This document shows, in pieces, positions 4,069-61,186 of a stretch of DNA of 64,000 nucleotides. The number at the start of each line of letters is the position of its first letter. The first letter of the stretch is position 1. A program made the translations under genes and the position numbers. The notes under the pieces are model-generated. The model was not told the DNA's origin, made no database searches, and saw nothing but the letters and a program-made list of their open reading frames with translations. Source of the DNA: Microbacterium wangchenii (GTDB lineage Bacteria; Actinomycetota; Actinomycetes; Actinomycetales; Microbacteriaceae). The stretch lies in the NCBI RefSeq assembly GCF_004564355.1, contig NZ_CP038266.1, positions 3,764,280-3,828,279 of the forward strand. The letters are read 5' to 3'.

Positions 4069-5189
4069 AGTTCCCACGCTAACGTGCGCCCCGGATGCCG
4101 TTCTGGGAGGGTACGGACAACGGATGCGGCGACGCGTAGGACCTTCTCGACAGACTCCTCCTCGCCGACCGACACCCGCAGGCCGTCGCCGGCGAACGCG
4201 CGCACGATGATCCCCTCCTCGGCGAAGGCCTCCGCGAACGGCTCGGTGTGCGCGCCGGCGGGTAGCCACACGAAGTTGCCCTGCGCGTCGGGGATGCGCC
4301 ATCCCGCCTCCCGGAGCCCGGCGGCCAGGCGATCGCGGCGCTCCGCGATCGCGGCGACGCGCTCGAGCAGGGCGCCCTCGGCGTCCAGGCTCGCCAGCGC
4401 CGCGGCCTGGGCCTGGGCGGTCACCGAGAGCGGGATCATCGTCGCCCGGGCGGCATCCAGCACGCGGGGATGGCCGATGGCGTAGCCGATCCGCAGCGCG
4501 GCCAGCCCGAAGGCCTTGGAGAAGGTGCGCAGCGCCACGACGTTGGGCCGGCCGAGCAGGCCCAGGACCCGCATGCCGTCGACGGCATCGGGTGCCGTGA
4601 CGAACTCGGCGTACGCCTCGTCGAGGATCACCATGACGTCGCGCGGCACGGCGTCCAGGAACGCGGCGAACTCGTCGTGGGTGACGACCGGACCGGTCGG
4701 GTTGTTGGGGCTGCACACGAGGATGACGCGGGTGCGCTCGGTCACGGCGGCCGCCATCGCCGGAAGGTCGTGGCGGGAGTCGTCCGTCAGCGGGATCTCG
4801 ATCGCGGTCGCGCCACTGACGGCGACGAGCGTCGGGTAGGCCTCGAACGACCGCCACGCGTACATCACCTCGTCTCCGGGACCGGCGGCGGCGAGGATCA
4901 GCTGCGCGATGAGGGACACCGACCCCGCGCCCACGTGCACCGCTTCCACGGCGACGCCGTAGCGGGCGGCGAGACGTTCGCGCAGCCGCATCGCCATCGC
5001 GTCGGGGTAGCGGTTGAGCTCCGCCGCACCGCGTACGGCGTCGAGCACACCCGGCAACGGCTCGAAGGGGTTCTCGTTGCTCGAGAGCTTGAACGCGTCG
5101 GCGGCCGCCTGGCGCCCCTGACGGTACACCGGCAGGGAGGCGATCTCGGGCCGGATGCGGGGGAGGACGGGGGCGTCGTCGTCGATCAC
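4065..5189 (-). CDS. Histidinol-phosphate/aromatic aminotransferase family protein
   Basis: This 374-residue type I fold PLP enzyme starts at GTG 5189 (MIDDDAPVLPRIRPEIASLPVYRQGRQ). The substrate loop SSNENPFEPLP and the PLP-lysine motif TFSKAFGLAALRIGYA (Lys near 221) are typical of HisC-like enzymes. In actinobacteria a HisC2/Pat-type gene often sits directly before the branched-chain 2-oxoacid dehydrogenase genes, as here, and its stop overlaps the E1 alpha start. The context suggests it may transaminate aromatic or branched-chain amino acids, but histidinol phosphate cannot be excluded from sequence alone. A gene name would over-claim. It is the promoter-proximal gene of the operon. Confidence 0.88.
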   Translation of the reverse strand: MIDDDAPVLPRIRPEIASLPVYRQGRQAAADAFKLSSNENPFEPLPGVLDAVRGAAELNRYPDAMAMRLRERLAARYGVAVEAVHVGAGSVSLIAQLILAAAGPGDEVMYAWRSFEAYPTLVAVSGATAIEIPLTDDSRHDLPAMAAAVTERTRVILVCSPNNPTGPVVTHDEFAAFLDAVPRDVMVILDEAYAEFVTAPDAVDGMRVLGLLGRPNVVALRTFSKAFGLAALRIGYAIGHPRVLDAARATMIPLSVTAQAQAAALASLDAEGALLERVAAIAERRDRLAAGLREAGWRIPDAQGNFVWLPAGAHTEPFAEAFAEEGIIVRAFAGDGLRVSVGEEESVEKVLRVAASVVRTLPERHPGRTLAWEL

Positions 5190-57163: not shown

Positions 57164-58144
57164 TCAGCCGCCGAATCCGTCCTCGCCCAGCTCCGCCAGG
57201 ATCCGGTTGAGGTCCTGAATGGTCGCGAAATCGATCACGACCTGGCCTTTCTTGGCCGAGAGAGACACGCGGACGCGTGTGTTCAGTCGGTCGCCAAGGC
57301 GCTCCGCCACCTCCTCAAGGTGACCGCGCCGGGTACCCGGCTTGGGTGCCGTGCGGCGCACGCCGGCGTCCGTGCTCTTCGCCGCCGCCTCGGCGGCACG
57401 CACCGAGAGATCCTCGTTCACGATCTTGTCGGCGAGCTTGCGCATCGAGGCCTCGTCCTCGAGCGACAGGATCGCACGCGCATGGCCGGCGCTGAGAACG
57501 CCGGCGGCGACGCGCTGCTGAACCGGTACAGGCAGGCGCAGGAGCCGGATCGTGTTGCTGATCTGCGGTCGCGACCGCCCGATCCGGGACGCGAGCTCTT
57601 CCTGTGTGATTCCGAAATCCTCGAGCAGCTGCTGGTACGCGGAGGCCTCTTCCAGCGGGTTCAGCTGCGACCGATGCAGGTTCTCCAGCAGCGCGTCGCG
57701 AAGCAGGTGCTCGTCGGCGGTGTCGCGGACGACGGCGGGGATCGACGTCAGGCCCGCATCCCGCGCGGCGCGGGTACGACGCTCACCCATGATGAGCTCA
57801 TATCGCCCCTCCCCCACGTCGCGCACGACGATGGGCTGCAGGACCCCGAACTCGCGAACACTGTGGACCAGCTCGGCGAGGTCATCGGCATCGAAGTGGG
57901 TACGGGGCTGGCGGGGGTTGGGGACGACCGAATGCGGGTCGATGTGGAGCAGGCGCGCCCCGGGAACGGCAACCAGGTCGCTCTGCTGCTCCGCCTTCTC
58001 CGCTGCCGCACGCTCGGCCGCCGCGTCGGCCGATGCACTCTCCGCCGCGCCGGGGAAGAAGACGTCGACCGGCCGCGCCTCCGACAGTTCCGTCGTCGGG
58101 ATCAGCGCGCCGATCCCCCGTCCCAGTCCAGTCCGCTTCGCCAT
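57164..58144 (-). CDS. parB: Chromosome-partition protein ParB (CTP-dependent DNA clamp)
   Basis: The 326-residue protein starts MAKRTGLGRGIGALIPTTE, whose ATG shares one base with the parA stop. The nuclease-like N domain includes IDPHSVVPNPRQPRTHFDADDLAELVHSVREFGVLQPIVVRD and the CTP-binding GERRTRAARDAG. The helix-turn-helix that reads parS is ITQEELASRIGRSRPQISNTIRLLRLP near residue 175. The dimerisation domain ends the protein (RVSLSAKKGQVVIDFATIQDLNRILAEL). It loads at the six parS sites to the right and recruits SMC and ParA to segregate origins. Confidence 0.97.
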   Translation of the reverse strand: MAKRTGLGRGIGALIPTTELSEARPVDVFFPGAAESASADAAAERAAAEKAEQQSDLVAVPGARLLHIDPHSVVPNPRQPRTHFDADDLAELVHSVREFGVLQPIVVRDVGEGRYELIMGERRTRAARDAGLTSIPAVVRDTADEHLLRDALLENLHRSQLNPLEEASAYQQLLEDFGITQEELASRIGRSRPQISNTIRLLRLPVPVQQRVAAGVLSAGHARAILSLEDEASMRKLADKIVNEDLSVRAAEAAAKSTDAGVRRTAPKPGTRRGHLEEVAERLGDRLNTRVRVSLSAKKGQVVIDFATIQDLNRILAELGEDGFGG

Positions 58145-59058
58145 CAGGATTCCTTCTCTTTCGTGCCACGTTGAATGATCTCCACCGCTGCCTCACGGTA
58201 GGCGACTGCACCGGCGGATTGCCCGTCGTAGGCGATCACCGTCTGTCCGAAGCTGGGAGCCTCCGACACGCGCACCGAGCGCGGGATCACCGTCCGGAGG
58301 ACCTCCTCGGGGAAATGCGAGCGCACCTCTTCCGCCACCTGCTGCGCCAGGCGCGTGCGCCCGTCATACATCGTCAGCATGATGGTCGACACGTGGAGGC
58401 CGGTGTTGAGGTGGCGCTGGATCATCCGGACGCTTCCTAGCAGCTGGCTGAGGCCTTCGAGCGCGTAGTACTCGCACTGGATCGGGATGAGCACCTCGGA
58501 TGCTGCGGTGAAGGCGTTGATCGTGAGCAGACCCAGCGATGGTGGGCAGTCGATGATCACGAAATCCATGCGGTGCTCATCGGAGGCGAGGTAATCGTCG
58601 AGCGCCGTGCGCAGGCGGTGCTCGCGCGCGACCTGGGAGACCAGCTCGATCTCTGCACCGGCGAGGTGGATCGTGCTCGGCGCGCAGAAGAGATTGTCGG
58701 ACTCCGGGCTCTTCTGCACGATGTCGGCGAGCGGGAACTCGTCAATGAGTACGTCGTAGACACTCGGGGTGTCGGCCGTGTGCGGAACGCCGAGTGCGGT
58801 GGAGGCGTTGCCCTGCGGGTCGAGGTCGATCACCAGCACGCGGGCACCGACGCCGGCCAGCGCCGCCGCCAGGTTGACTGCGGTCGTGGTCTTTCCCACG
58901 CCGCCCTTCTGGTTCGACACGGTGAAGACACGGGTGCGCGTCGGCATTTCGACCGCCACTTCTTCCAGAGCTCGTCGCCGGGCGGAGAGATCCGCCAACT
59001 CACGGGCGATCGGAGAGTCGAACGTGATGCCGGACCCGGAGTCGTCGGATTGTTTCAC
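58144..59058 (-). CDS. parA: Chromosome-partition ATPase ParA
   Basis: The start is GTG 59058, in the centre of a parS site, with GGGAG about 12 bases before it, giving 304 residues. After a polar N-terminal extension of about 42 residues the P-loop FTVSNQKGGVGKTTTAVNLAAALA appears (deviant Walker A with both lysines), then LVIDLDPQGNASTALG and FVIIDCPPSLGLLTINA. ParA-ATP binds DNA non-specifically and pulls ParB-parS complexes. ATG 58947 (MPTRTRVFTVSNQKGG) would give a protein without the extension. The parS at the start allows direct repression by ParB. Confidence 0.96.
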   Translation of the reverse strand: MKQSDDSGSGITFDSPIARELADLSARRRALEEVAVEMPTRTRVFTVSNQKGGVGKTTTAVNLAAALAGVGARVLVIDLDPQGNASTALGVPHTADTPSVYDVLIDEFPLADIVQKSPESDNLFCAPSTIHLAGAEIELVSQVAREHRLRTALDDYLASDEHRMDFVIIDCPPSLGLLTINAFTAASEVLIPIQCEYYALEGLSQLLGSVRMIQRHLNTGLHVSTIMLTMYDGRTRLAQQVAEEVRSHFPEEVLRTVIPRSVRVSEAPSFGQTVIAYDGQSAGAVAYREAAVEIIQRGTKEKES

Positions 59059-59065
59059 GTGAAAC
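59051..59065. other. parS site 1
   Basis: TGTTTCACGTGAAAC, a 15-base match to the near-universal parS consensus. The GTG start codon of parA lies in its centre, so ParB spreading or clamping here would bear on parA expression. Confidence 0.95.
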
Positions 59066-59161
59066 GCTCTCCCTTGCCGGTCGGATCCAGACGCTCCAGT
59101 CTACCCGCGGCGAGTGACACCCCCCGACGGCAGGCTGACGCGCGCGGATCCCGGCCGCGGA

Positions 59162-59176
59162 TGTTTCACGTGAAAC
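59162..59176. other. parS site 2
   Basis: TGTTTCACGTGAAAC, identical to site 1, 96 bases into the gene-free region upstream of parA. Confidence 0.95.
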
Positions 59177-59216
59177 TTTCGGGCGCCAGCGGTGCGCCAA
59201 CACCCGCGCGCGTCGC

Positions 59217-59287
59217 GCAGAACTCAGGCGAAACGGTGGTTTCGCCCCGGTCTTCGGCGCCAGCAGCTGGATTCGCCCGAGTTCTGG
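59217..59287. repeat. Inverted pair 1 of the AGAACTCAGGCGAA motif
   Basis: GCAGAACTCAGGCGAA (59217-59232) and ATTCGCCCGAGTTCTGG (59271-59287) are inverted with one mismatch in the core. An inner stem GGCGAAA/TTTCGCC (about 59226-59245) overlaps the left arm, giving the nested form seen at 19.9, 42.7 and 44.7 kb. Confidence 0.8.
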
Positions 59288-59867
59288 ACCGGCGGCCTGA
59301 CGAACTCACCTCCCGCCGAAGCGCCGTGTCGCGCCGCCCGCACTCCGAACCCATCGACACGGCGGCCCCGCGTGCCTCACGACCGACGTCATCGCCTCAG
59401 TTGTCCCCACGGTCGGCAGTGGAGCAGAACTCAGGCGCGATCCACCCCCCGGCGGCTTGATCCCGCGCCCGGGACCGGATCTCCTGCACGGCGACAGGAA
59501 GGCCGCGCGTGCGTCACCACCCCCGACGCATCCGTGCTTGTCGGTTGTCGGTTCGACGGCTATTCGCCGTCGGTCGTCGGGCGGTCGGTTGGCGCAGTTG
59601 CTTAGACCGTGCAGAACTCGGGCGAATGCGGGAGATTCCGGCGTCATCGGAAATTAGACGGCATCATCGCGTGAGTTCAGAGGGGCGGGCTCGGATGGCG
59701 GCTCCCACCACAGACCGCGGCTGGTCGCGCAGCGGGCGACGGCTGCGCCGAATCAGACCGTCTTTCGGGGTCAGTGCTCCCACGAGGCATCCCGCCCGGC
59801 GCGGTCCTCGTCACCGTACTCGACACTCCGCAGCAGGCTGCGAACGCTGTTCACGACCCGTCTCCGA

Positions 59868-59938
59868 GCAGAGTTCAGACCCGATCGGGTGTGCGCCGCC
59901 GCACTGGTCACCCTCAGCCTGAATCGCCTGAGTTCTGC
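59868..59938. repeat. Inverted pair 2 of the AGAACTCAGGCGAA motif
   Basis: A degenerate left copy (GCAGAGTTCAGAC, 59868-59880) and a good right copy (AATCGCCTGAGTTCTGC, 59922-59938) enclose the perfect 12-base palindrome ACCCGATCGGGT (59879-59890). Length equals pair 1 (71 bases). Confidence 0.65.
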
Positions 59939-60040
59939 GCGAGCGACCGAGTGTTGCCGCGGGCTCTGATGAAGTGTCCGACCCTCCCTGGCGCCGTAGC
60001 GCAACACAGCTGCAATCCATGCGGCGCACTCCGGAGCTGA

Positions 60041-60055
60041 TGTTTCACGTGAAAC
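60041..60055. other. parS site 3
   Basis: TGTTTCACGTGAAAC, identical to the other five sites; it lies between inverted pairs 2 and 3. Confidence 0.95.
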
Positions 60056-60136
60056 CGCAGGCCTCGCGCCGTAGAAGGATGGGGTGTTGGGGCGCACACG
60101 GCTCACACGCCGGCGGAGCCTAACGTCCCACCGCTC

Positions 60137-60205
60137 GGAACTCAGGTCGAATCGACTCTCCGCGACTGGCGTCGCCCCCGACAAGGCGAATCGCCTGAGT
60201 TCTGC
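60137..60205. repeat. Inverted pair 3 of the AGAACTCAGGCGAA motif
   Basis: GGAACTCAGGTCGAAT (60137-60152) and GAATCGCCTGAGTTCTGC (60188-60205) are inverted; an inner TCGAATCGA dyad overlaps the left copy. Span 69 bases, close to pairs 1 and 2. Confidence 0.75.
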
Positions 60206-60307
60206 GTGAGGCACCGGGTTGCAGCGCTCACGCGTGAAGCATCCGACGCGCAACGGGCCGAGAACCAACGCAGCCGCAATGCATCCGCGGGACACCCCGG
60301 TGGCCGA

Positions 60308-60322
60308 TGTTTCACGTGAAAC
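60308..60322. other. parS site 4
   Basis: TGTTTCACGTGAAAC, identical to the other sites, about 100 bases beyond inverted pair 3. Confidence 0.95.
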
Positions 60323-60422
60323 GCCTAGCCCCCGGTAGGCAAATGAGACGAACTGCGTGGCGATGAGACGCACCGCGGCCCAGGCGCGCGGATTCGATCG
60401 CCGAGGTCACAACCGTCCGCGA

Positions 60423-60437
60423 TGTTTCACGTGAAAC
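60423..60437. other. parS site 5
   Basis: TGTTTCACGTGAAAC, 100 bases beyond the end of site 4, at the rsmG-side end of the gene-free region. Confidence 0.95.
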
Positions 60438-60535
60438 GGACAGCGGCTGCGTCCGCGGTCACGGCCCGAACCTGGCAGGCAACTCAGGCCTGCGATCGCG
60501 TGCCGAAAGTCGCAATTGGAAGTACGCGAAGTGGG

Positions 60536-61186
60536 CTACGCCCGGACGCGCGCACGGACCACGCGTGTCGGTTCGTCGAGGAGGCCGGCGCCCACGGTTT
60601 CCACCCGCACGTCCGTCAGGCGATACGCACGGATCTGCTTGGCGGCCGCGTCGATCTCCTTCTGCGCACTGGCGCCTTTCAGGAGGATAAGTTCGCCACC
60701 ATCGCGCACCAGCGGCGCGGTGAAGGGGATCAGGGTGCGCAGCGCGCTGACGGCGCGAGCGGTGACGGCGTCGAGGGATCCCGCCCCGGCCCAATCCTCG
60801 CCGCGCGAGCGCACGACCTCCACGTTGTCGAGCCCGAGGGCCTCGACCTGCTCCGTGAGCCACGCAGTACGGCGCTCCATCGGCTCGATCAGGACCCATG
60901 ACACGTCCGGGCGCGCAATGGCGAGGACGAGGCCAGGGAGACCGGCGCCCGACCCGACGTCGCCAACGCGGCCGGAGAACAGCGGAGCGACGATCGCACT
61001 GTTGAGCACATGGCGTGACCAGATCCGCGCCGGTTCGAGCGGCCCGATGAGCCCCCGTTCCTCACCGTGGCGCGCAAGCGCCTCGGTGAATCTCCGGGCC
61101 AGGTCGATCCGTTCGCCGAACAGCGTCGCAGCGGCTGCCGGTTCGGGCTCGATCTCGTTCATCGATGTTTCACGTGAAACGGTCAA
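60536..61186 (-). CDS. rsmG: 16S rRNA (guanine-N7)-methyltransferase RsmG
   Basis: The frame begins at TTG 61186 (TTGA overlaps the stop of the jag-like gene) and passes through a parS site, read as VSRET, to ATG 61162 (MNEIEPEPAAAATLFGERIDLA). Either start is possible; neither has a clear ribosome site. The SAM-binding motif is VGDVGSGAGLPGLVLAIARPD, and ILLKGASAQKEI is conserved. The protein is 208-216 residues, normal for RsmG, which methylates G527 of 16S rRNA; loss gives low-level streptomycin resistance. Confidence 0.94.
   Translation of the reverse strand: MTVSRETSMNEIEPEPAAAATLFGERIDLARRFTEALARHGEERGLIGPLEPARIWSRHVLNSAIVAPLFSGRVGDVGSGAGLPGLVLAIARPDVSWVLIEPMERRTAWLTEQVEALGLDNVEVVRSRGEDWAGAGSLDAVTARAVSALRTLIPFTAPLVRDGGELILLKGASAQKEIDAAAKQIRAYRLTDVRVETVGAGLLDEPTRVVRARVRA
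61166..61180. other. parS site 6
   Basis: TGTTTCACGTGAAAC, lying between the two possible starts of rsmG, just after the jag-like gene stop. Coding and parS sequence overlap here if TTG 61186 is used. Confidence 0.95.

Follow-up and report, generated by a model that had tools for sequence, protein, structure and literature searches.

What are the inverted repeat pairs that alternate with parS sites in the gene-free gap between parA and rsmG of Microbacterium wangchenii? The gap (59066-60535) lies in a window comprising the final 64 kb of the single-contig, 3.83-Mb chromosome of this organism. An earlier note on this DNA had suggested a structured centromere, a binding array for a second protein, or a family resembling repetitive extragenic palindromes (REPs), and this interpretation is partly borne out, the last of the three being closest. 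The analysis presented here points to the pairs being, more likely than not, target or passenger elements of homing-type nucleases, similar to REPINs though without a RAYT, which were amplified beside parS.

Four gap pairs and a dispersed family

The motif of the gap pairs is GCAGAACTCAGGCGA. Scanning both strands with the 16-mer GCAGAACTCAGGCGAA at up to three mismatches returned six copies in the gap and none in the remaining window, compared with a mean of 0.03 per shuffled gap (n = 30), while allowing up to five gave 10 gap copies and 32 across the other 62.5 kb, against 0.73 in shuffled gaps. The reported array is thus real and concentrated in the gene-free gap. The strong copies are located at 59217(+), 59273(-), 59424(+), 59611(+), 59924(-) and 60191(-). 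These six stand from the ten copies listed previously; the other four, at 59391(-), 59868(+), 60137(+) and 60478(+), are weak (at least three mismatches in one of two motif scans, the second with an 11-mer, with the exception of a position, 60136(+), that has one mismatch in the 11-mer), and a copy at 59667(-) had been missed. The weak copies at 59868 and 60137 nonetheless matter because they complete pairs.

In all four plus/minus arm combinations (11-mer, at most three mismatches, 20-150 bases apart), the spacing is 58. The first pair (59217..59287) is composed of arms 59217(+) and 59273(-), and the second (59611..59681) of arms 59611(+) and 59667(-), while the third (59868..59938) and fourth (60135..60205) each combine a weak arm, 59868(+) and 60135(+), with an exact arm, 59924(-) and 60191(-), respectively. 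The earlier note had described three pairs of 69-71 bases; the pairs are real but, since 59667(-) partners 59611, they number four, and each measures exactly 71 bases. One strong arm (59424..59438, +) has no partner at spacing 58, and two weak single arms (59392..59405, -, with three mismatches, and 60478..60488, +, with three mismatches in 11) could be due to chance. The inner dyad attributed to each pair was not recovered, as the folding of the cores does not exceed that of shuffled sequences (z 0.26, -0.40, 0.04 and -0.17). In contrast, the observation that parS sites fall between the pairs, and not within them, holds for all four gap sites.

Part of this alternation has a simple origin. 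The third pair and the parS site at 60041 form one unit (A, 59840..60070) of an old tandem duplication, of which the second unit (B, 60107..60337) contains the fourth pair and the parS site at 60308. The units are identical at 145 of 228 aligned positions, and no other self-offset of the gap scores higher than theirs of 267 (0.507 in a 150-base window, against at most 0.473 in 20 shuffles). This alignment indicates that a pair and a parS site were duplicated jointly at least once, which explains their interleaving in these two units; pairs 1 and 2 are not accounted for by this duplication.

Relatives of the gap pairs are dispersed over the chromosome, where at least 29 further pairs with AACTCAGGAGA-type arms, a fixed spacing and variable cores were found. 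Searching this genome with the family pattern TCAGGMGA..TCKCCTGARTT gave 29 forward matches, which come on top of the four gap pairs because the pattern does not cover these. Among the dispersed elements, the arms are near-identical and the spacing is constant, while the cores diverge. The element length is 70 in 27 of 29 cases here and in 17 of 20 in G085, the nearest relative found (RsmG 89% identical). Twelve elements of other genomes measure 79-80 bases (nine) or 69-70 bases (three), a ten-base step that would suit two subunits placed on one helix face. The pattern occurs in 10 of the 119 genomes of our genus sample. The gap branch is distinguished by CGA in place of AGA in the arm and by a spacing that differs by one base, and arm matches that keep the CGA (at most one mismatch) occur only in the gap in this genome. 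On the basis of these comparisons, the gap pairs form a 71-base, gap-confined branch of a dispersed family of 72 bases, in which arms and spacing are kept while the core drifts.

The composition and placement of the family agree with the REP-like reading: it is genome-wide, it is built like REP doublets, and 27 of 29 checked elements are intergenic by a simple gene call. Fifteen of these lie between convergent genes (for three of the fifteen, the gene on the left is over 1 kb away), nine between tandem and three between divergent genes, and many of the elements between convergent genes are approximately 50 bases or less from a stop codon. The arms are able to pair into a long stem, the cores of the 29 genomic elements fold with a mean z of -0.48 relative to shuffles, and the consensus of 58 arms from this genome contains no GTAG. 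With at least 29 pairs elsewhere, the motif is not specific to partition, and the structured centromere finds no support. The earlier note had named two patterns as evidence against its reading, a spread over intergenic DNA unlinked to parS and an absence of the array in close relatives. This is largely what is seen, most of the family being located elsewhere than at parS and the arm occurring in one of 61 resolved parA-rsmG gaps of relatives; the exceptions are the gap-confined CGA branch, related pairs in the G085 gap and the recurrence of unrelated arrays in this gap in other species.

Comparison with G085 illustrates both conservation and turnover. In 16 elements that could be aligned across 12 pairs of orthologous regions (one element without counterpart was dropped), the arms differ at 31 of 480 bases (6.5%), a figure that is biased downward since the regions were picked by arm pattern, the core and flank figures being less affected. 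The cores differ at 109 of 671 bases (16.2%), the 60-base flanks at 466 of 1841 (25.3%) and the whole regions at 4947 of 48014 (10.3%). Four further orthologues, identified by flank alignment in stretches chosen by interpolated position (for three, known motif matches were also considered), all keep a spacing of 59. One orthologous pair of elements (L216/L359) has identical arms and largely different cores. Regarding turnover, element L202 is absent from a G085 spacer of which both flanks align, L199 and L201 are absent from the shown G085 sequence beyond the aligned left flank, and a tandem pair here corresponds to a single element in G085 (L198/L351); L205, L206, L215 and L233 were assigned to neither outcome. 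In the parA-rsmG gap of G085 itself, only short motif and parS pieces align, and the gap possesses its own related pairs.

Nuclease genes bracketed by inverted pairs

Three pairs of the dispersed family bracket a gene in which an AbiEi-like DNA-binding domain is fused to a homing-endonuclease-like (EDxHD/Vsr) domain. Residues 37-199, in the N-terminal part, match the AbiEi fold (E 5.9e-4; structure 6y8q), and the C-terminal part has the fold of an EDxHD homing endonuclease catalytic domain (compared structure 3r3p). Residues E207, D234, D246, H251 and D260, which we equate with the EDxHD motif, are conserved in 31 of 31 nucleases.

To score bracketing, an inverted pair (11-base arms, at most one mismatch, 35-95 bases apart) was sought within 900 bases on each side of a gene, and the two sides were taken to match if they shared the same arm (at most two mismatches) with spacings within two bases. 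Nuclease homologues are bracketed by their own, differing pairs at 25 of 54 loci (56 were fetched, of which two were too short); this corresponds to about 23 independent positives because two orthologue pairs (L238/L239 and L248/L249) are among the 25. The same test was negative on shuffled flanks (0/270), at rsmG loci (0/8), at other genes (0/73) and at genes near the parS gap (0/156). Within this genome, the four homologues (L238, L248, L263 and L364) all pass, each with its own arm type, as do four of six in G085 (L239, L249, L259 and, by a single weak match, L365); L366 fails, as does L267, though a pair is visible on each side of it. Arm types differ between nuclease paralogues. Two of the nuclease genes of this genome are located at G000:2603512-2604429 and G000:999831-1000661. 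The second nuclease of this genome (L248; G000:C1:999731-1000994) has its own dispersed family, GAACTCCTCA..TGAGGAGTTC: searching with its arms, as a prediction, yielded 28 pairs here, 38 in G085 and none in 117 other genomes. As judged from these associations, such families go with AbiEi-EDxHD/Vsr nucleases, and two arm types are dispersed in one genome.

At the fourth nuclease (L364; G000:C1:2141764-2142441), AATTCAGGAGA pairs with nested inner arms are present; the same 11-mer is spaced at 61 here and at 53 in the first family. Repeats of at least five copies occur at 18 of the 54 EDxHD-type loci. Four of the class-level homologues that pass the test lie outside the bacterial family; these (L333, L336, L340 and L342) belong to other families of the class and are bracketed by unrelated inverted pairs, and the nuclease link therefore extends beyond Microbacterium. 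PMC3710099 names a restriction endonuclease (REase) domain in MTES_1575.

The known systems suggest how such a pairing might operate. The REPIN GI doublets, as described in PMC3116915, are 71-bp inverted doublets with conserved ends and a less conserved spacer, tied to a RAYT. The elements described here share with these the inverted doublet, conserved ends, fixed spacing, variable spacer, dispersed extragenic placement and link to an enzyme; however, their arms are not GTAG-tagged short palindromes, and the enzyme tied to them, a nuclease, has a different fold. The RAYT/Y1 transposase profile PF01797 has no match in this genome or in G085, and only one of 18 genomes was positive (G041). Because no RAYT is present, we do not file the elements under REPIN/RAYT. 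The match in G041 (L237; G041:C15:20980-21342) is the sole Y1 transposase among the 18 Microbacterium genomes searched. GTAG- and CGTC-tagged REPs are likewise palindromic intergenic families, the CGTC families being without a known enzyme, but their sequences are different, and the part of the source consulted names no actinobacterial family and no nuclease partner (PMC3733652).

As for the enzyme, I-Bth0305I is an EDxHD homing endonuclease that is described as dimerising on nearly 60 bp (PMC3943268, in part; structure 3r3p). The nucleases identified here differ in that they carry an AbiEi-like N-terminal part, their gene is bracketed by intact pairs and many pair copies are dispersed; furthermore, their cutting activity is putative. 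AbiEi (structure 6y8q) shares with them the fold of residues 37-199, and its DNA sites are likewise inverted repeats, separated in the AbiEi and Rv2827c operators by 3 or 13 bp according to the section of PMC7319586 that we consulted. In contrast, the arms described here are about 40 bases apart, occur on both sides of the gene and in dispersed copies, and the AbiEi-like part is fused to a nuclease domain. Since I-Bth0305I dimerises and AbiEi-type proteins bind inverted repeats, we infer that two nuclease subunits would bind one arm each, in a fixed helical phase, and would act on the core between them. Repair of the resulting nick or break would then copy the element, so that the family would spread much as REPINs do, but with a homing-type nuclease instead of a RAYT. 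The array beside parS would in this view have arisen by such elements multiplying locally in a gene-free stretch, as opposed to being a partition device. The binding array for a second protein proposed in the earlier note agrees with the constant arm spacing and with the AbiEi-like make of the linked nuclease, though binding itself is putative.

Several points weigh against the nuclease-target reading. Cutting, binding and movement are deduced here from sequence, and a nuclease that cut about 30 chromosomal sites would harm its host, such that control of cutting must be assumed. Neither a target-site duplication nor a clean empty site was seen in the comparison with G085, in which the spacers are too diverged to place junctions, and the low arm divergence carries the bias indicated above. 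The two-sided test fails at 29 of 54 nuclease loci, some having a one-sided pair only, and the class-level sample passes at just 6 of 24 (27 fetched, three cut by contig ends). Arm similarity tracks nuclease similarity weakly (Mantel rho 0.25, p 0.003, 29 loci). Finally, no nuclease of this genome is bracketed by the CGA arms of the gap.

An unlikely alternative, though the best placed among the rivals, is that the pairs beside the nucleases are autoregulatory operators of the AbiEi-like domain, with the dispersed copies serving as decoys or as operators of a regulon. AbiEi and Rv2827c indeed recognise paired 23-bp inverted repeats within their own promoters (PMC7319586), and one pair lies upstream of the gene at bracketed loci. 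However, a pair is also found downstream of the nuclease gene, and the dispersed copies are located at gene ends, with 15 of 27 intergenic elements between convergent genes and only three between divergent ones.

The same gap in relatives and the remaining alternatives

Among 80 named loci, 61 have parA within reach (the 19 without it were left out), and 58 of these 61 resolved gaps carry at least one exact 14-base parS core. The arm (10-mer, at most one mismatch) is present in only one of the 61. Forty of the gaps are at least 600 bases long, and 12 of these hold a repeat family, an array being called from at least three copies above the largest of three resampled controls, a threshold chosen after inspection of the table. 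These families, for example GGTCTCGATACGC and CCGGTCGTTGAGC, are unlike the window motif; in five relative gaps that were mapped, the repeats lie among parS sites. Small GIY-YIG genes are present in 15 of the 40 long gaps, namely in 10 of the 12 array-bearing gaps as opposed to 5 of the 28 array-free ones (Fisher p 1.7e-4).

In the genus sample, 52 of 119 genomes have a small GIY-YIG gene. Among 30 such loci, 26 possess a repeat of at least five copies, on both sides in 24 cases; 13 are near at least two parS sites and 17 are not, and since the 30 are the best matches to a parS-gap query, the figure of 13 probably overstates the share in the genus. Of 16 GIY-YIG matches located in long frames (to judge by frame length, mostly UvrC), none was accompanied by five or more repeat copies. 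In this genome and in G085, the only GIY-YIG match is in a long frame in each (846 and 907 aa; taken as UvrC), the small gene being absent. These arrays resemble the system described above in that a nuclease gene lies inside an inverted-repeat array, often in the same parA-rsmG gap, while both the nuclease family and the repeats are different. GIY-YIG and EDxHD are both described as homing endonuclease families in the consulted parts of PMC6083498 and PMC3943268. Gap arrays are, as far as these genomic comparisons indicate, recurrent and of differing make, and the link between array and homing-type nuclease appears to hold away from parS too.

The gaps of L117, L143 and L104 each contain a small GIY-YIG gene among parS sites and regular inverted-repeat arrays, with up to 26 repeat copies in 2.1 kb in L143. 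More distant relatives (L149, L159 and L160) have rsmG/parA gaps of approximately 40 bases without parS. Locus L136 is labelled Stenotrophomonas maltophilia, yet the rsmG there shares 73% identity with that of this Microbacterium and adjoins parA and parS; it is probably a mislabelled or contaminated contig.

These data bear on the possibility that the array is part of the partition site, its pairs binding a second protein that organises ParB-bound DNA. The pairs do alternate with parS, arrays of other sequence occur in 12 of the 40 long relative gaps, and G085 keeps related pairs although the remainder of its gap does not align; the confinement of the CGA arm, at spacing 58, to the gap in this genome also argues against full dismissal. 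We nevertheless consider a partition role quite improbable, as at least 29 family pairs lie away from parS, the arm is missing from 60 of the 61 resolved relative gaps, nearly all of which have parS (related pairs being found in the G085 gap only), the duplication of a pair together with parS accounts for one alternation, and 17 of 30 loci have similar arrays around small GIY-YIG genes far from parS. The repeats look more like nuclease targets or passengers than partition machinery.

Similarly improbable is an explanation in which the host retains the elements as 3'-end structures (terminators or RNA stabilisers), the nuclease link being a side effect of where the genes settle. The proximity of many elements (about 50 bases) to stop codons, the convergent genes and the capacity of the arms to form a long stem would be expected of such structures, but the fixed spacing and cores that fold no better than shuffled ones would not, and the nucleases have arm types of their own on both sides, a pattern seen at 0 of 73 control genes. 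The least probable explanation, despite the inverted ends, dispersed copies and presence/absence between species, is that the elements are miniature transposons served by an unrelated transposase. Such elements (miniature inverted-repeat transposable elements, MITEs) would be expected to have a conserved interior and a target-site duplication; here the cores differ between loci, no duplication was seen in spacers too diverged to place junctions, and this genome has no Y1 transposase (other transposase families were not searched for).

Returning to the nuclease-target reading, a broader form of it is that in Actinobacteria a homing-type nuclease (AbiEi-EDxHD and, in parallel, small GIY-YIG) replaces the RAYT, each maintaining its own genome-wide, two-armed target elements of 70-80 bp, with the parS region as a recurrent site of amplification; we consider this generalisation evenly balanced. 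No published account of a nuclease/paired-repeat pairing was found in the literature searched, subscription papers being mostly beyond reach. Many bacterial repeat families are without a known enzyme, and the pairing proposed here is directly testable. If the pairing is confirmed, repeats would have a second route of spread that needs no transposase, and no partition role would be required to explain why the arrays beside parS differ within Microbacterium.

Layout of the parA-rsmG gap

The gap is flanked by two open frames on the minus strand, for which we retain the names of the earlier note. The parA frame (58144..59058, -), which served as the ParA query for relatives, contains KGGVGKTT, a Walker A motif; relatives of rsmG (60536..61186, -) were found in named Microbacterium genomes. 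A codon-usage gene call placed no genes in the gap (59066-60535), an Rfam search of 58900-60700 (E up to 1) gave no covariance-model match, and a distant-mode search of a plasmid collection gave no match.

The parS sites were called with a 16-base parS consensus. Four plus-strand sites are in the gap proper, at 59162..59177, 60041..60056 (in unit A), 60308..60323 (in unit B) and 60423..60438. A parS-like site with one mismatch to the consensus overlaps the start of parA (59051..59066, +), and the 2.1 kb between 59051 and 61181 contain six parS-like sites in all. The last of these lies within the 5' end of rsmG (61166..61181, +), where it encodes VSRET.
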